A DNA stretch of 44,455 bases, from NCBI GenBank assembly GCA_016779565.1, contig JADHNJ010000018.1, positions 1 through 44,455 of the forward strand, given 5' to 3'. This stretch comes from Pseudomonadales bacterium (lineage in GTDB: Bacteria > Pseudomonadota > Gammaproteobacteria > Pseudomonadales > Azotimanducaceae). Shown one piece after another: positions 29,004-37,280 of the stretch (position 1 is the stretch's first letter; the number at the start of each line of letters is the position of its first letter). The notes beneath the pieces are model-generated. The model was not told the DNA's origin. It saw only the letters and a list, made by a program, of their open reading frames with translations, and made no database searches. A program made the translations under genes and the position numbers.

Positions 29004-31349
29004 TCAAATAGTATTGGCCGCATCTAGTCGTGTGACAAATTCAATCAAGTCTTTTTGGTTAAAAGGCTTGCTTAGAATATTGTCCGGCGGCAATGCCGTA
29101 AACTGTGAGCGAGCCAACTCAGTGGCGATGCCGGTAAGAATACCAATTTTTAAATGTGGGTGCTGGGTTTGGCAAAATTCAATCAGCCCCATACCATCTT
29201 CTGTTTTGGGCAGGGCCAAGTCCGTTAGCAATATCGACAGCTGCGTACCACGAGCGGAGAGCTCGAGGAGAGCCGCACTTAGGCTGTCTGCAGCCAATAC
29301 CTTGTAGCCAACCGATTCCAAAAAGGATTGACTGATAAATCTGAGATCGGCATGGGTCTCAACGAGCAAGATCTGCTTTAATTGAGCAGGGTTTTTCGGG
29401 TGAGTTGCCGTTTGCATGCCCCCTTTTCTTTGGGAAGCAGCTACCTTCGAGGCAACGCCCGCAATGGTGGCATCTGATTCAGGCTCCGTGATGCTCGAGG
29501 ACGTCGAGCGAGTCTCACCTCGAGGAAGTATTTCTTCCTTTTGAGGAGTTTCCGCACTTGAAAGCGGGAGGTATATATAGAAGGTCGATCCCTGGCCAGG
29601 CGTGCTCTCTACCCGAATAAAGCCGTCACTCTGGACCACAAAACCAAAAACAGAAGCCAGCCCCATGCCTGTGCCCGCTCCATCGGATTTAGTCGTATAA
29701 AAAGGCTCGAAAACTCGATTCATGACATCTGGTGTCATACCCATGCCATTGTCCGCAACGGATAAACAGATTAATGACTGCCCTCTTAAATTAGGTGGCA
29801 AATACGCATTGCGCTCTTCAGAGGTTGGTGGCCGGATAACGAGCTTCAATTCACCTCCGTCAGGCATTGCGTGATTGGCATTCACCACCAAATTTAGCAG
29901 GGCATTTACCAACGCCCCGTTGTCCAGCATCACTCGATCAATTTCCTCGGAGGCTTCAAAAATGAGTCGTACCTTTCGACCTGCTGCCTGCCTCAATAGC
30001 TCGAGGTTATTTTCAATGATTTCGCTTACTGAGATCACTTCAGGATCTAATACTTGTTTCCGAGAAAAAGATAGCAGCTGACCCACCAGCCTACCGCCCT
30101 CATCGGTTGCTTTTTTCGCTACGCCTAAGCTCTTTTTGACGACCGTGTTCGCATCTTGGTAATCGGCTTCTATAACATCTAGCGCGCCTTGAATGAGCTG
30201 TAAGAGATTATTGAAATCATGTGAAACGCCGCTAGTAAGCTCACCCAGGGATGTCAATTTTTGAGCGTGAGCCAGATTATATTCCAACTGTTTTCGTGCC
30301 CGCATATCCCGAACAAACGACAGGATAACCGGACGGTCTTCTATCTCAATCATAGAAGATGTGCTTTCAACCGGTATCTCATTGCCATCGGCGGCCCGAA
30401 TTACTGATTCTCTTCGATGCGCCTCTAACGAATGAATAAAACGGACTCGACTCATCCATTCCTGCTCATTTAAGCTTGAGGTAATGTCTAGTACTGAAAG
30501 GCGCAACAGCGCTTCTAGCCCGTAGCCAGTGAGTTCACAAGCCGTTTGATTTGCATACACAATGTCACCGGTTGCTTGATCGAAAAGAAAGCATGCATCG
30601 CCCGCACCATCTAGAATCGACTTAAAGCGTTGCTCATTGGCGGCTATTTGTCGTAATTGTTGCCTTTGTAGCTCAAAATTACGATTCACCTTTGCAACCA
30701 GCGCTCCGAGCTCATCTTTTTCGTGCCCTGATGGGATTGCGAGGTCGGACCCTGATTCAGACGATGCCTCAAGACCTGCCAGCAAGCGCTGAACAGGCGT
30801 AATAATTTGCAACCGAATGAGTAGGAGTAAAACCAATAACACCATCCCGATTCTGGCTGAGGCTAAACCGAGAAAGAACAGATTACGTTCAGCAAAATCA
30901 ACCAACCCTCGGTCGACATTGAACCAAATCGTTAATTTGCCGGCTTGCTCAGCGCTTGTATCCTGGTGCAACGTAATGAATTCTGGCGTCCTTTGTTCTA
31001 CCAAAAAATGAACCAAAGGCATTTCTGGTATTGGATCCGTTCTGGTAATTTTGGCCAAGCTATTACCTGATGCGCCTAATATTTCAGCTGCATCAATGAT
31101 TTCTGACGTGAGCAGAATTTGAAGGGTCCGCTCGGCGAGCGCCTCATTCTCAGTTTGGGAGGCTTGATGCATAAGAGGCAAAAGCTCATTCAAATGCTCT
31201 TGATAAGCTTTTTGATCTTTTCCAACCTCGCGCTCGAACTCTACGTAGACTTGTGTGACACTGAAGCCGACACTTACGAGTAAAACAGTTATCACAGCGT
31301 AGGCTGCGATTCGGACCGCTAGCGAATTAAAACGGCTTACTGTTTCCAC
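29004..31349 (-). CDS. Hybrid sensor histidine kinase with PAS and receiver domains
   Basis: This 781-residue membrane kinase has transmembrane segments at about residues 10-30 and 165-185 bounding a periplasmic sensor of about 130 residues, then HAMP (about 186-240), PAS (about 245-350), HisKA with the phospho-His in SGVSHDFNNLLQ (about H376), HATPase with NANHAM, DNGMGM and GTGMGLASVFGFV (about 490-610), a Ser/Thr-rich linker, and a C-terminal receiver (about 660-781) with phosphoacceptor D710 in LLTDLALP and Lys in LSKPF. The receiver acidic pair is only E (LLVETHAD), unusual for metal binding. The SHDFNN type usually signals through a separate regulator; none is adjacent. It starts 74 bases after the selenoprotein gene and may share its transcript. 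Confidence 0.9.
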   Translation of the reverse strand: METVSRFNSLAVRIAAYAVITVLLVSVGFSVTQVYVEFEREVGKDQKAYQEHLNELLPLMHQASQTENEALAERTLQILLTSEIIDAAEILGASGNSLAKITRTDPIPEMPLVHFLVEQRTPEFITLHQDTSAEQAGKLTIWFNVDRGLVDFAERNLFFLGLASARIGMVLLVLLLLIRLQIITPVQRLLAGLEASSESGSDLAIPSGHEKDELGALVAKVNRNFELQRQQLRQIAANEQRFKSILDGAGDACFLFDQATGDIVYANQTACELTGYGLEALLRLSVLDITSSLNEQEWMSRVRFIHSLEAHRRESVIRAADGNEIPVESTSSMIEIEDRPVILSFVRDMRARKQLEYNLAHAQKLTSLGELTSGVSHDFNNLLQLIQGALDVIEADYQDANTVVKKSLGVAKKATDEGGRLVGQLLSFSRKQVLDPEVISVSEIIENNLELLRQAAGRKVRLIFEASEEIDRVMLDNGALVNALLNLVVNANHAMPDGGELKLVIRPPTSEERNAYLPPNLRGQSLICLSVADNGMGMTPDVMNRVFEPFYTTKSDGAGTGMGLASVFGFVVQSDGFIRVESTPGQGSTFYIYLPLSSAETPQKEEILPRGETRSTSSSITEPESDATIAGVASKVAASQRKGGMQTATHPKNPAQLKQILLVETHADLRFISQSFLESVGYKVLAADSLSAALLELSARGTQLSILLTDLALPKTEDGMGLIEFCQTQHPHLKIGILTGIATELARSQFTALPPDNILSKPFNQKDLIEFVTRLDAANTI

Positions 31350-31423: not shown

Positions 31424-31942
31424 CTAGTCCGTTTGCTCGACCAAAGCGTTTAAAACATCAGGAAAAGCCGACTCCGCGATAATCCTCATCTCGTCATCCG
31501 TTCTATCCTGAATGGGATGTTCAACAAACAACCGATATGGATGAAACCCAAGCGACTCGCCCTGGGCCGCTGCTGCTTGTTCAAACTCTACGGTGGCTAT
31601 GAATGCCCCCGGAATACCGCGTCGATCAAGGTCTAAAATGTCATGCAAACTGCACGACGTACATGACCCTCAGTCTGCGAGCGCTTCTAGCACGGCATCG
31701 CAGTCACCAGCAATTTCTTGCCTCAGTGTATCTGGCGCTACCCGGGTAAAGGTTGGCTTTTTATAGCGCCGCGTTTCAGCCCCATGCTGCTTTAGCAGAT
31801 CTTCAATACGGTCCAAAAAAACATTGCCTCGAGGTTTGGAAATATCCAGCAACGCAACCCGCTTACCTTTCAAGTCGGTTAGCCTTGCTAATGGTTGGCG
31901 GCCCTCTGGGGTCAACTCGGACGTTGGGTCTAACATTTCCAT
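31424..31942 (-). CDS. UGSC-family selenoprotein (selenocysteine at in-frame TGA)
   Basis: Two short frames join into one 172-residue protein if the TGA at 31670-31672 is read as selenocysteine: residues 1-90, Sec91, then GSCTSCSL and the rest to the stop at 31424. The result holds the motif Sec-Gly-Ser-Cys, which names the UGSC selenoprotein family known from marine bacterial genomes. The downstream part has no ATG before its conserved start, so an independent gene is unlikely. A stem-loop suitable as a bacterial SECIS starts 11 bases after the TGA. The gene follows the thioredoxin-fused gene by 11 bases, with AAGGA as ribosome site. The family's reaction is unknown; Sec plus nearby Cys (Sec91, Cys94, Cys97) implies redox chemistry. 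selA-D must be elsewhere. Confidence 0.9.
31640..31672 (-). promoter_or_regulatory. Bacterial SECIS element with UGA(Sec)
   Basis: After TGA (31672-31670) and 11 spacer bases, GTCGTGCA pairs with TGCATGAC around a GTT loop (31658-31640): eight pairs, one of them G-U. E. coli fdhF has its minimal SECIS helix also 11 bases after UGA, with UGCA-GGUC-UGCA at the tip; the tip here is UGCA-GUU-UGCA. A G at the first loop position and the 19-base distance to the loop fit the bacterial SECIS rules. The hairpin was found by eye. Confidence 0.85.
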
Positions 31943-31953
31943 ACAATTTTCCT

Positions 31954-33369
31954 TTATGTATAAATTTCTTTGGTAACTGGGACGCTGCCAATGGCACCGC
32001 TGGCACCCCAGCCTGCTATGATCGCCGAAAACAAACCCGCTCTACCACCGGCCCGCACTATCCTCAGACCACCGTCTCTGAATTTGCAAATCGTTCGATC
32101 TTTAAGTGTCTCAGGTATTCCTTCAGCGATGCCTTGCGCGCCTTGTACAAGTTCAGCGCCGGGTATCATCAACAGCTCTATAAGCTCATCAATCAACCGA
32201 TTTTTTTGCCAGTTAGCGTCTCGGAAAACGCGCTCGTGTTCGGGCGAGATAACCAAAAACGCATCGGATCCCTGTACCATTTTAGGATGTCCAATAGCGC
32301 GCAACCCTGCAGCAAAAGAACGAGCCAAAGACTCGGGCGTTCTTGATTTTTGATCCACGATTCCCTGCATCCCGTCGGCAGCAAATACCGTCACAGTCGA
32401 TTGCTGAGGAGCGAAGCCTGAATCTTCTGCCAAAGATGGCCAACAGGAATTCAGTTCGTCTTCGGCAAAACAAAAGGTATATTTACCAGGATTTCCTAGG
32501 GCAGCCCGATCGACACCACCGGGCTTGCCGCCACCCACATTTCGTATAACCAGTTGAAGCGCTCGCCCAATCGTTGCGTTCGCACGATTGCCTTGGCCCA
32601 AGGCGTTGCCACCACTATTCATCCCGATCGACCTCGATATCGGCCCGTTGACTACTATCATAGGTCCAGAAAAATAAGTCGTCGCCAATAAACCATGCAT
32701 GCAAAACTGGTCTTCCAGCACGGCCTCTACTGCGGTTATAACAACCGGTAAATATTCTGGTAGGCAGCCTGCCATAACGGCGTTGATCGCAATTTTCTCA
32801 ACAGTACATGGTGCATAGTCCGGCGGGACAGACCCTATCAACTCCTGAGGCGACCGGGTTGTACCAGCCAGCATTCGAAAAACTCGTTCAGCTGTCGGAG
32901 GTATTACTGGCAGGCCATCAGACCAACCTTGGTCGAAGCCAACTTCAAACGGGTCAACGTCTTCGAAGGCAAGACGTCTTGATACCAGTTTATCTTGATC
33001 AAATCGTGCGGCGAGGCGCTCTTGCATCCCTGGGTCGTGAGTTTTAGAGCCACAACCAGGTCGAAAGGCTGGAATATCTGAAGTTAAGGTTAAACCGAGT
33101 ATCGACTGCCATTGGTCGCGATCCCAACCGTGGGTCCGAGCAACTTCCTGTCCATCTTCATCAACAATTAACGTTGGTACAACTTCAATACCCAATTTGT
33201 GTGAAATTTCTAAGGTCTCATCATAATTGACGGCAATGTCTGCGGCGAAATCCAGCGTATCCTGGGAAATAATTTTGGTCGTTGGAAGTTCTGCGAGTAA
33301 CCTAATGACAGGTTCAATAAGCAGGCAGGTTTCGCAGCTTTTCTTTACTACCAAAGTTAAGTTAGGCAT
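31954..33369 (-). CDS. Thioredoxin-domain protein fused to a UGSC-associated domain
   Basis: This protein of 471 residues (start ATG 33369, sharing one base with the kdsB stop) begins with a thioredoxin-like domain, about residues 1-85: strand LTLVVKKS, active site CETC (C12, C15), and the cis-Pro in VVPTLIV. The remaining 385 residues are a separate domain with GWSDGLPVIPPTAERV (about 145-160), HGLLATTYFSGPMIVVNGP and RNVGGGKPGGVDRAALGNPGKYTFCFAE. I do not know a named function for that domain. It lies 11 bases upstream of the UGSC selenoprotein, so a redox partnership (the CxxC reducing the Sec protein) is a natural inference. The in-frame upstream ATG at 33399 is less likely because it lies inside kdsB. 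Confidence 0.75.
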   Translation of the reverse strand: MPNLTLVVKKSCETCLLIEPVIRLLAELPTTKIISQDTLDFAADIAVNYDETLEISHKLGIEVVPTLIVDEDGQEVARTHGWDRDQWQSILGLTLTSDIPAFRPGCGSKTHDPGMQERLAARFDQDKLVSRRLAFEDVDPFEVGFDQGWSDGLPVIPPTAERVFRMLAGTTRSPQELIGSVPPDYAPCTVEKIAINAVMAGCLPEYLPVVITAVEAVLEDQFCMHGLLATTYFSGPMIVVNGPISRSIGMNSGGNALGQGNRANATIGRALQLVIRNVGGGKPGGVDRAALGNPGKYTFCFAEDELNSCWPSLAEDSGFAPQQSTVTVFAADGMQGIVDQKSRTPESLARSFAAGLRAIGHPKMVQGSDAFLVISPEHERVFRDANWQKNRLIDELIELLMIPGAELVQGAQGIAEGIPETLKDRTICKFRDGGLRIVRAGGRAGLFSAIIAGWGASGAIGSVPVTKEIYT

Positions 33370-34118
33370 CAGCAGCTTACTCCGGCAAAATGGCGACAAA
33401 CACGGTCAAGATCTTCTTGGGTGTCTACTCCTGGCAGAATGGTCTCATTAGCAGGATCAACGTGTATATGAGCATCGTGGTCTAGGGCTCTTAGCTGCTC
33501 CAACTGCTCTAAGGCTTCGATTCTAGCCACCGGCCATCCTACGAAACGCTTTATAAAACCTGCGCGGTAAGCATAAAGCCCAATGTGACGCATGACATCA
33601 AGCGGCGCCCCAGGCAGGCTATCCCTATTGAAAGGAATCATGGACCGGCTGAAATATAAGGCTCGGCCCGAGCTAGAAAAGACCACTTTGACACTATCAG
33701 GCGCCTCTGGGTTCTCAGTGGGAGAGAAAGAACAAGCTAGCGTTGCCATATCCGCACCCGATGACACGAGATTATTGGCGACTTGATCTAAACAGGCTGG
33801 CGGCATTAAGGGCTCATCGCCTTGCAAATTTACCACAACGGTCTCGTCTTCAAGCTTCAGCGCTGAAACAGCTTCCGCAACTCGATCGGTGCCTGAAGTG
33901 GCCTCTGCGTGAGTCATGATGACCTCCACTTTACCTTCAAGCACTTTAGCAATCTCTGGGTGGTCCGTTGCAACAACGACCTGGGTAGCGCTGCTCTGAA
34001 GCCCCTGGGTTACCACCCTTTCTATCATGGTAAGACCCGCAATATCGCGCAGTGGTTTGCCGGGCAAGCGAGTGCTCGCATAACGCGCCGGTATGACAAT
34101 CACATACTCAACGCTCAC
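33369..34118 (-). CDS. kdsB: 3-deoxy-manno-octulosonate cytidylyltransferase (CMP-KDO synthetase)
   Basis: This 249-residue enzyme activates KDO as CMP-KDO for attachment to lipid A. The N-terminal [20 protein letters not shown] is the nucleotide-binding signature, followed by [31 protein letters not shown] and [11 protein letters not shown], all conserved in KdsB. The start is GTG at 34118, in a 4-base GTGA overlap with the Trm112-like gene. Its stop shares one base with the ATG of the thioredoxin-fused gene, so the selenoprotein genes sit at the end of an envelope operon. Confidence 0.95.
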
Positions 34119-34321
34119 TTAGCAATGTTATCCAACTGATCAGGATTTTCACTAGAGAGCGGTAGAGCCTCACTAGGCAGCATGACCGGGATATCATCTT
34201 TAATAGGGTAAGCCAATCGGTCTAAAGAGCAAATCAACACCTGTTTTGCCGAATCATGGATTAATCCGCCCTTACAAATGGGGCAGACTAAAATCTCTAG
34301 TAATCGTGGACTGACCGTCAT
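34115..34321 (-). CDS. Trm112 family protein (YcaR-like)
   Basis: This 68-residue small protein has a zinc-binding-like CPICKGGL, a later Cys ([24 protein letters not shown]) and the conserved AYPI..GIP..L pattern of YcaR/Trm112. It is found between lpxK and kdsB in most gammaproteobacteria, as here. The eukaryotic relative activates methyltransferases; the bacterial role is unsettled. It overlaps kdsB by 4 bases. Confidence 0.9.
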
Positions 34322-34400: not shown

Positions 34401-37280
34401 CTATTCGGCACTGTCAAAACCCCTACTAGCGAGTCTCGCCATTAGGGAAGTTTCGACATTTTTGGGCAATGTAACTTCAATGCACAAAACCAAAATATCA
34501 GCTGAGATACTCTGCAAATCCAGCGACCTGCAGCGAAAATAATCTTTTTCCGTCATGACAACCGGTTCCCCACCAGGAAACTGCAAATCAGCTTCCGTTA
34601 GCACTGCGTGATCAGGCCAAGGGTGCTCGATCACAACACTACCCAGATCCCGAAGCGTGTTGAAAAACCGTTGGGGATGCCCGATTCCTGCAACCGCATG
34701 GAGCCTCAAATTGCTCAGTTTCCTGATCGGTATCGTCAATCCTGTTTTTGCGTCAAGTAACGATGAAGGGTTAGCAAATACACGATCCGACGTTTCGGGA
34801 GCAACCTGGAAACGATCGGTTCCATTGACTAAAACCGCATCAACCGAAGCCAACCGACTAGGCTTTTCACGTAATGGTCCCGCGGGCATTATTTGACCAT
34901 TGCCGAACCCGCGCTCACCGTCTACGACAGCAATCTCAAAATCTCGTTTTAAGGCATAATGCTGCAAACCATCGTCGCTAATGATGACATTGCAATCGCC
35001 AGAATCGGCTAACAAGGCGGCTGCGGCTGTTCGATCGCGACAGCAAATCGTCGGTACCGAGGTTCTTGCATGAATCAGTAACGGTTCGTCACCGACATCC
35101 TCTGGACGCGACGATAAATTAACGCGCACCGGTTTTTTTGCAGTACCACCAAAGCCCCGAGAGATTACGCCAGGTCGAAATCCCCTTGACTGTAAAAATT
35201 TAACAAGCGCGATCACCACCGGGGTCTTGCCAGTACCTCCAGCGGTGATATTACCGACGACGATAATGGGTAGCTCACAGTGATAAGCGTTTTTTTCATG
35301 CTTAGACCGGCGTCTCCTAGCTTGAGAAATCCAATCAACGACCCAACCCAATGGCTTCAGCACTGTTAACCAAGCCGAGCCCTCATACCAAGCGTTGGGC
35401 AACCACATCCCAAGACGAAATCGATTGGCCTCTACCGGCAGAGGATAAGGTCTAACCGAAACCTCAGGCTCTATAGCGGCCACTTCTATTGGCGTATCCT
35501 GCGAAGTTTCGAAAAATTGCGCATAGCGAGCGCCTCGAGCTAGAAGCTCTTGGTGTGTTCCGGATTCTTTAATTTCTCCATCTTCCAGGACAAGGATTCG
35601 ATCTGCCTTTTCAATCGTAGACAGCCTATGCGCGATTACAATCACCGTCCTGCCTCGCACGACTTCGTCGAGCGCGATCTGGATAGCTCGCTCTGATTCA
35701 GCATCTAGGGCGGAAGTTGCCTCATCTAAGATGAGAATCGGAGCATCTTTTAGCAGCGCGCGGGCTATTGCCAGACGCTGACGCTGCCCGCCCGACAGCA
35801 AGACTCCATTATCCCCTACTTGAGTTTCTAAACCCTGCTCAAATCCTTGAATAAAATCCCAAGCTTGCGCAGATTTCGCAGCCTCGATGATGCGCTCAGA
35901 CGATTCGTTACGCAAAGCCCCATAAGCAATGTTGTTTGCGATCGTATCGTTAAATAATGTAACGGTCTGACTGACAAAGGCCATATGTTGCCGAAGGTTT
36001 TGACGGCTGAACGATGTAACGGGGTGACCATCAAGCAAAATTGCCCCTGAGGATGGTTCATAAAACCTTGGAATTAATGTCGCTAGTGTCGACTTGCCAG
36101 CACCACTTGATCCAACCAGCGCGATGGTCTCACCGGGGGCAGCTACAAAGGAAATATTGTTGAGCACAGCACTTTCGCTACCCGCGTAGCTAAAAGACAC
36201 GTCACGAAACTCGATACGTCCTTCGACCTGGTTCAGGGCGAGCGAGCCATGATCTATTTCCGTAGGTTCATCAAGCACTTCGAAAAGGTCGGCTGAAGCG
36301 GCAATTCCTTTTTGCACGATTGCAATAATATCGGTCAATTGGCGAATGGGCTTGGCCAACAAACCACCTGTTGTAATGAACGCAACTACATCGCCAGTTG
36401 ACATATCACCTCGAATAGCAGGCTCGAGCAACAGCCAAACGAGTCCGGCCAAAACCACCGAAACGATGACTTGAATCACAGGAGTTGCGATCGCCGAAGT
36501 CAATACCATCTTCATGGATTGATTGCGATTGAGCGCGCTGACCTTTCCAAATCTCGACCGCTCATAGTCCTCAGCGCCAAATGATCTAACCTCTCGATAA
36601 CCCTGAACAGCTTCGGACGCAACTTGAGTAACATCTCCCATTGAGTCTTGAATCCGCTCGCTGATTTTTCGAAATCGCCTCCCAGCAATTCTCGCGAGCA
36701 CCCCGATCAATGGCGCTGCGATCAGAAACAAAAGTGTCAATCGCCAGTTCAGATACAGCAAGAAGCCCAAGTAGCCCAATACTGTAAGCCCTTCCCTAAA
36801 GAGAATTTTTACAGCATCCGTCGCAGCCCCTGTGACTTGGGTGACATGATAGGTAAGTTTTGCAACGAGATGTCCAAAGGCGTGGTTATCATAATAGCTA
36901 CTCGGCAACTTCAGAAAACGATCAAAAAGCTCCGTTCTTAAATCGAATATCATTTTATTCGCCGCATAATGAATAAAATAATTTCCTACTAGCGTGCCCA
37001 ACCCGCGAATCAAAACGATCAGAACGATTGCACTAGGCACAAATACCTGATTGTCGATGATGCCGATGTTTAGAAAAGTCGATAAACGCTCAATCACCCC
37101 ATGGTCAGTGACTACTTGTCCGCTTTGCAGAGAATCAACCAGATAGGATACCAACTGCACGACGCTGACATTGGCAATGGAATACAACAAAAACCCAAGA
37201 AGGCTTAGGAAAAAAGCAGCCCAGGGCGTATATCCAAGCAAACGCCGATAGACCGAGGTGTCGCTCATTGACCCAGTCAT
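34401..37280 (-). CDS. MsbA-LpxK fusion: lipid A ABC flippase and tetraacyldisaccharide 4'-kinase
   Basis: This 959-residue protein is continuous through two normally separate genes. Residues about 1-590 are MsbA: six transmembrane segments to about 310, Walker A GSSGAGKST (about 390), LSGGQRQRLAIARALL (about 495), Walker B ILILDEATSALD and HRLSTIEKAD. After a linker of about 30 residues, residues about 620-959 are LpxK: NAWYEGSAWLTVLKPLG, P-loop VVGNITAGGTGKTPVV (about 677), GVISRGFGG, VIISDDGLQHYALKRD (about 770) and VMTEKDYFRC. The kinase adds the 4'-phosphate to lipid A precursor and the transporter flips lipid A across the inner membrane. The ATG at 37280 overlaps the exbD stop (ATGA). 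Order exbB-exbD-msbA/lpxK-ycaR-kdsB otherwise matches relatives. Confidence 0.93.
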   Translation of the reverse strand: MTGSMSDTSVYRRLLGYTPWAAFFLSLLGFLLYSIANVSVVQLVSYLVDSLQSGQVVTDHGVIERLSTFLNIGIIDNQVFVPSAIVLIVLIRGLGTLVGNYFIHYAANKMIFDLRTELFDRFLKLPSSYYDNHAFGHLVAKLTYHVTQVTGAATDAVKILFREGLTVLGYLGFLLYLNWRLTLLFLIAAPLIGVLARIAGRRFRKISERIQDSMGDVTQVASEAVQGYREVRSFGAEDYERSRFGKVSALNRNQSMKMVLTSAIATPVIQVIVSVVLAGLVWLLLEPAIRGDMSTGDVVAFITTGGLLAKPIRQLTDIIAIVQKGIAASADLFEVLDEPTEIDHGSLALNQVEGRIEFRDVSFSYAGSESAVLNNISFVAAPGETIALVGSSGAGKSTLATLIPRFYEPSSGAILLDGHPVTSFSRQNLRQHMAFVSQTVTLFNDTIANNIAYGALRNESSERIIEAAKSAQAWDFIQGFEQGLETQVGDNGVLLSGGQRQRLAIARALLKDAPILILDEATSALDAESERAIQIALDEVVRGRTVIVIAHRLSTIEKADRILVLEDGEIKESGTHQELLARGARYAQFFETSQDTPIEVAAIEPEVSVRPYPLPVEANRFRLGMWLPNAWYEGSAWLTVLKPLGWVVDWISQARRRRSKHEKNAYHCELPIIVVGNITAGGTGKTPVVIALVKFLQSRGFRPGVISRGFGGTAKKPVRVNLSSRPEDVGDEPLLIHARTSVPTICCRDRTAAAALLADSGDCNVIISDDGLQHYALKRDFEIAVVDGERGFGNGQIMPAGPLREKPSRLASVDAVLVNGTDRFQVAPETSDRVFANPSSLLDAKTGLTIPIRKLSNLRLHAVAGIGHPQRFFNTLRDLGSVVIEHPWPDHAVLTEADLQFPGGEPVVMTEKDYFRCRSLDLQSISADILVLCIEVTLPKNVETSLMARLASRGFDSAE

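Follow-up and report, generated by a model that had tools for sequence, protein, structure and literature searches.

The stretch of DNA analysed here (the window) comprises positions 1 to 44,455 of contig JADHNJ010000018.1 in the draft genome GCA_016779565.1, from a Pseudomonadales bacterium of the family Azotimanducaceae. On its minus strand, at 31424..31942, lies a gene of the UGSC family of selenoproteins, which yields a 172-residue product when an in-frame TGA is read as selenocysteine (Sec). Directly upstream on the same strand, at 31954..33369, is a gene for a 471-residue protein, here called the partner, which combines a thioredoxin-like domain with an unnamed core. We hold with high confidence that the first is an intact selenoprotein gene and that, together with the second, it forms a two-gene module for which it provides the Sec subunit. 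The favoured overall reading of this module is that it is most likely a thioredoxin-driven Sec reductase.

A UGSC selenoprotein gene divided by a TGA codon

Two minus-strand frames, of 90 amino acids (31670-31942) and 74 amino acids (31424-31648), are in phase with one TGA between them (31670..31672, minus strand). Reading this TGA as Sec places residue 91 at the head of the motif U91-G-S-C94-T-S-C97. The joined 172-residue product scores 145.1 bits against the NCBIfam model NF041046 ("UGSC family (seleno)protein"; cut-off 125) and 143.3 bits against PF24696 (cut-off 25). The separate halves match the corresponding halves of the UGSC models with 53.6 and 55.1 bits (NCBIfam), as expected when a recoded codon divides a single gene, and either half by itself is below the NCBIfam cut-off. 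The protein has the U/C-G-S-C motif at the Sec site, and G92, S93 and C94 are invariant in 42 aligned UGSC proteins. It is a real, intact selenoprotein gene and a member of an already described family, not the founder of a novel one.

An earlier interpretation made from the letters alone (the sequence-only reading) had proposed a Sec-Gly-Ser-Cys selenoprotein of the UGSC family, encoded by two frames in phase across a single TGA and using Sec91 with Cys94/Cys97. The coordinates, the translation and the search of the joined product, which that reading had itself recommended, bear this out. It had also warned that automatic annotation would report two hypothetical proteins or a pseudogene; this is apt for the halves taken singly, given their scores, but not once the TGA is read through, when the UGSC family is named.

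Conservation of the Sec codon and of the downstream half

Our comparison covers 101 UGSC loci, namely the window, 20 loci among the best matches of a genome search and the best 80 of 358 from a related-locus search. All 101 have TGA at the Sec site, in a sample that under-represents distant and Cys forms and that was drawn with a search peptide which, carrying Cys for Sec, favours Cys forms. The titles of the locus records span several phyla and name Gammaproteobacteria, Actinomycetes, Acidimicrobiales, Deltaproteobacteria and others; cultured Marinobacter species are among the carriers (loci L061, L066, L080 and L095). Among 67 UGSC matches in 58 related genomes, some of them fragments, 61 have one TGA and six have none.

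Both halves of the gene are under purifying selection in comparisons with 10 relatives: the proportion of synonymous differences (pS) is 0.68-0.85 (0.68-0.83 for the downstream half), and that of nonsynonymous differences (pN) is 0.17-0.30 before the TGA and 0.12-0.30 after it. Homologues that end at the TGA, with the downstream half left unconserved, had been named in the sequence-only reading as the finding that would speak against a selenoprotein; the values after the TGA are the opposite of this.

Two side observations concern the sampled loci. A divergent UGSC paralogue without a stop (G016:C111:9475-9957, L180) has GDSECSSAS where others have GDUGSCSTC, which places Ser at the Sec site, and no partner gene adjoins it. 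Two records titled "MAG: Klebsiella pneumoniae" (L050, L087) hold UGSC pairs resembling those of aquatic bacteria, and these titles are probably wrong.

The hairpin after the TGA and selection on the RNA

A hairpin at 31640..31658 (minus strand) starts 11 bases past the TGA and has eight pairs, including one G-U, and a GUU loop, just as the sequence-only reading had described it. The 42-base stretch containing it has a fold energy of -11 kcal/mol. The model for the bacterial selenocysteine insertion sequence (bSECIS), as quoted in PMC13188914, requires a loop of 3-9 nt with a G in its first two positions, a stem of 4-16 bp, a UGA-to-loop distance of 16-37 nt and a minimum free energy (MFE) of at most -7.5 kcal/mol. 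With a 3-nt GUU loop, 8 bp, 19 nt and -11 kcal/mol, the hairpin agrees with all four constraints.

The 101 loci yield 75 distinct hairpin sequences. From stem base to loop, the pairs are kept in 54, 56, 75, 72, 73, 75, 75 and 68 of these; a few two-sided base changes occur within the stem, and the core hairpin is present in the MFE fold of 58. The commonest loop is GUG (37/75). Two sequences of a divergent short-partner type (L030 and L032) have a CCG loop and depart from the stem. In this comparison of sequences the signal for the hairpin is stronger than that from the single sequence, which is weighed below.

Silent sites were compared over all 101 loci, near-identical ones kept, at codons whose residue is common to at least 85% of sequences, a rule that leaves out codons 96 and 99. 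Ser98 is encoded by AGT in 86/86 sequences having Ser there, in contrast to Ser93, whose codon entropy is 2.44 bits. For Asp101, 97/101 sequences use GAC, and six other Asp codons have entropies of 0.77 to 1.0 bits; for Cys97, 94/99 use TGC, and Cys94 is TGC in 64/101 and TGT in 37/101. Mean codon entropy is 0.62 bits over the six hairpin-region codons within 94-101, as against 1.45 over 49 others. Because several silent positions are frozen in this way, we take the pattern to reflect selection acting on the RNA.

A partner gene that accompanies UGSC

The stop of the partner gene lies 11 bases away from the start of the UGSC gene. Its thioredoxin-like domain, residues 1-93 (33091..33369, minus strand), contains C12-E-T-C15 and gives a Trx match over residues 12-84. 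The core domain extends over about residues 139-471 (31957..32955, minus strand); within it, all 37 aligned proteins share the cysteines C202 and C300. Searches of Pfam and NCBIfam placed the core in no named family and gave scattered weak matches only.

Of the 100 UGSC loci besides the window, 97 have a relative of the partner. Two of the remaining loci have 666 and 32 bases upstream (L068 and L108, respectively), and the third (L072) has 6 kb upstream without a partner. Across the 58 genomes, UGSC is present in 35 and the partner in the identical 35, with either alone in none. The partner is within 139 b of 61/67 UGSC matches, and 59 of these 61 pairs share a strand; the partner comes first in 36 and UGSC in 25. 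Long partners, with the thioredoxin part, make up 28 of the 61, the other 33 being short (including a few fragments). Apart from the partner, no neighbour family that seems genuine occurs at more than 20 of 81 loci.

This pairing hints at a two-part selenium enzyme. With the UGSC family itself already known, the near-obligate association may be the new element here, and its strictness offers a direct handle for finding the UGSC reaction.

Predicted fold and a possible reductase mechanism

The predicted model of the UGSC protein, with a predicted local distance difference test (pLDDT) score of 92.4, alternates strands and helices in the order E28-33 to H149-167 and shows a Rossmann-like domain, in which Sec91 would follow strand 83-89 and stand at the beginning of helix 92-107. 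Among its structural matches are flavodoxins, response-regulator receivers and Rossmann enzymes, and there is no thioredoxin among the matches listed.

Several observations point towards the Sec subunits of glycine and D-proline reductases. GrdB-type NCBIfam models match up to 22/42 UGSC members weakly, around the Sec (best 3e-5). Profile alignment with hhalign places Sec91 on Sec164 of a PrdB-like protein with a probability of 20.8% (5.7% with alignment A3), and an alignment against the single protein left the Sec region out. The UGSCTSC motif is also of the UxxCxxC form tested for in GrdB/PrdB, a form that GrdB carries according to the relevant passage of PMC13188914. From the profile matches, the motif and the Sec-on-Sec alignment together, we draw a faint link that suggests distant kinship of UGSC with the Sec domain of these reductases.

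It is quite conceivable, though we would stop short of calling it probable, that UGSC works like the glycine and D-proline reductases. The following scheme for the UGSC-partner pair as a whole, including its electron path and reductive chemistry, is put forward with the same reserve. The partner core would bind the substrate, and the Sec91 selenolate, poised at the helix start of the Rossmann-like domain, would attack and reductively cleave it. Sec91 would then close a selenenylsulfide with Cys94 (or Cys97), which either the partner's fused CxxC thioredoxin domain or a free thioredoxin would reduce again. More specific and slightly more doubtful is the proposal that the pair constitutes an unrecognised two-component Sec-dependent reductase, distantly akin to the glycine and D-proline reductases and driven by a thioredoxin domain of its own, in which both the substrate and the fold that binds it would be new. 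Some findings pull the other way: PF07355 (Pfam GRDB) matches none of the 42 UGSC members, the statistics behind the GrdB link are weak, and over half of the paired partners (33/61, the short ones) are without the thioredoxin part.

The best-surviving competitor gives UGSC a thioredoxin fold and the role of a thiol oxidoreductase or peroxidase, with the partner only as its electron donor. The UxxC motif and the Trx domain in the partner agree with this, and in its passage on UGSC, PMC2398784 calls the family likely Trx-like. The confident model, however, is Rossmann-like, with Sec after strand 83-89, its structural matches are of the kinds named above, and partners that lack the Trx part still retain the core. 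The model does not support the published assignment, and we regard this alternative as unlikely.

Less probable again is a hydratase/lyase pair, in which the partner core would resemble a class I fumarase and the Sec protein would serve as its redox activator. Leishmania fumarate hydratases, which we take to be class I enzymes, occupy Foldseek ranks 1-4 for the partner model (E 6.6e-4 to 1.3e-3, over 352-356 columns). Set against this, the TM-score is at most 0.22, the root-mean-square deviation is 16-17, and no Pfam fumarase match was obtained; the core also has only two invariant cysteines, which are few for an Fe-S cluster. As judged from the predicted model, the likeness to fumarate hydratase is too weak to use.

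Evidence on decoding of the Sec codon in this genome

In the favoured reading, which sequence comparison supports, SelB and Sec-tRNA decode the TGA at 31670-31672, aided by the hairpin directly after it. Several observations weigh against this. By itself the hairpin is a weak signal, with a z-score of -1.7 and 12/200 shuffles folding equally well; two codons of the hairpin region, Thr95 (1.27 bits) and His100 (54 CAT, 44 CAC), are not frozen, the wobble base of the latter pairing mainly as G-U or G-C. The draft genome (2.41 Mb, 85 contigs, 80.9% complete) has none of selA, selB, selC and selD over cut-off, and its best tRNA-Sec score belongs to a tRNA-Leu. In the same genus, selA was not found in G003 (93% complete), G007 (96%), G004 (73%) and G006 (62%), and selB, too, is not over cut-off in G003 and G007.

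The sequence-only reading had itself named a genome lacking selA, selB and selC as evidence that would overturn it. Taken literally, the draft is such a genome, but the position expected for selA-selB coincides with a contig gap. Of 14 other genomes of the genus, 10 have selA, and the gene order around it was taken from ten stretches in nine of these. The gene preceding selA is of one family in the nine stretches that hold selA, and the gene following selB is of one family in the seven that reach that far. In the genome studied here, contig C67 has the four preceding genes of the block, in order, and breaks off within the gene before selA (43% identity over 102 residues). Contig C10 starts inside the gene that follows selB (63% identity) and continues with the next five block genes. 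Because both contigs break within the genes that border selA-selB in relatives, gene order places selA-selB in the assembly gap between C67 and C10. This explanation is limited to selA-selB, selC and selD being without such a placement. More generally, gaps in draft genomes can wrongly suggest that a genome is unable to decode Sec.

The genus provides further evidence on decoding. Of seven same-genus stretches scanned with ARAGORN, six (G003, G004, G006, G007, G009 and G013) yield a tRNA-Sec (tca) and the seventh (G001) a tRNA-Lys. TGA-containing UGSC genes are present together with tRNA-Sec and selD in G003, G004 and G007; G003 has only the divergent UGSCTTG type and G007 both types.

The genome under study also has a second Sec-type gene, a PrdB-like gene at 701-1633 of contig C11 (L166), with U164 in the motif UPVC. 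It matches TIGR04483 at 9.6e-43 and 146.3 bits, below the cut-off of 300. A TGA interrupts it at the UxxC motif, and 10 nt later follows an 8-pair hairpin with a GUG loop (z-score of -0.78 alone). The presence of a second such gene was counted in favour of the Sec reading of the UGSC gene.

That Sec decoding has been lost in the lineage, leaving the gene as a recent relic, or that the TGA is read by other means, would agree with the failure to find selA/selB in this genome, G003 and G007. We nevertheless consider it very improbable in view of the contig breaks inside the genes flanking selA-selB, the second Sec-type gene, and the tRNA-Sec and selD in G003, G004 and G007. In addition, all that the draft offers of an EF-Tu-like gene is its start, which breaks off where contig C61 ends. 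Finally, a pseudogene or sequencing error, with the TGA a real stop and the second half debris, could appeal to the missing sel genes and the weak single-sequence hairpin, but it is scarcely credible against a TGA shared by all 101 loci, whose record titles span several phyla, purifying selection on the downstream half and frozen silent sites in the hairpin.

Other genes around the locus

On the same strand, ahead of the partner-UGSC pair (window 33369-34321, minus), come a YcaR-like gene (65 bits, cut-off 126) and kdsB. Because the kdsB stop overlaps the partner ATG, at 33369, by one base, the pair may be co-transcribed with lipopolysaccharide genes here. Further upstream, a 959-residue frame (34401-37280, minus) matches MsbA (685 bits, residues 11-592) and LpxK (242 bits, residues 644-923), and by these matches it is a predicted lipid A transporter-kinase fusion. 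Downstream of the UGSC gene is a hybrid PAS histidine kinase with a receiver domain (29004-31349, minus).

Comparison with known systems

The hairpin had been likened to the SECIS of E. coli fdhF, and comparison with fdhF of strain MG1655 upholds this: in both, the TGA is followed after 11 bases by a stem with a TGCA-loop-TGCA tip, TGCA-GGTC-TGCA in fdhF and TGCA-GTT-TGCA here. The two differ in the loop, which has 3 nt here and 4 nt in the fdhF fold, and in the stem, whose eight pairs are unbroken here whereas the fdhF fold has a one-base bulge.

Relative to the UGSC family as modelled in NF041046 and PF24696, the gene has the same full-length match, UGSC motif and in-frame TGA with SECIS, with no essential difference. 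In the passages on UGSC, PMC2398784 counts the family among the major selenoproteins of the Global Ocean Sampling (GOS) survey, with 255 Sec copies; reviews of 2022 (PMC9312934) and 2026 (PMC13188914) list it, and PMC7539508 names it among algal selenoproteins. Judged by the GOS count, UGSC ranks among the most abundant selenoproteins known from aquatic microbes, and the 2026 review describes the functions of UGSC and similar selenoproteins as largely uncharacterised. The UGSC-partner pairing and the GrdB link were found neither in those passages on UGSC nor in the literature listings searched. A UGSC/Unknown_1 fusion described from the GOS survey (PMC2398784) likewise combines UGSC with another conserved domain, and Unknown_1 may be the partner found here.

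GrdB, GrdF, GrdH and PrdB resemble UGSC in the UxxCxxC motif and in the weak profile matches around the Sec. They differ in that UGSC is far below their family cut-offs (14.9 bits against 602.2 for TIGR01917), and for this reason we have not filed UGSC under GrdB/PrdB. For the partner, too, no likeness to its counterparts in those systems was seen: the 37 partner proteins hit 16 Pfam and 11 NCBIfam families (E up to 1), none of them of the pyruvoyl GrdE/PrdA type, in a scan that could miss a distant relative. By analogy, the scheme proposed for the UGSC-partner pair would resemble in outline that of the glycine and D-proline reductases, in which the Sec subunit has a UxxC(xxC) motif.
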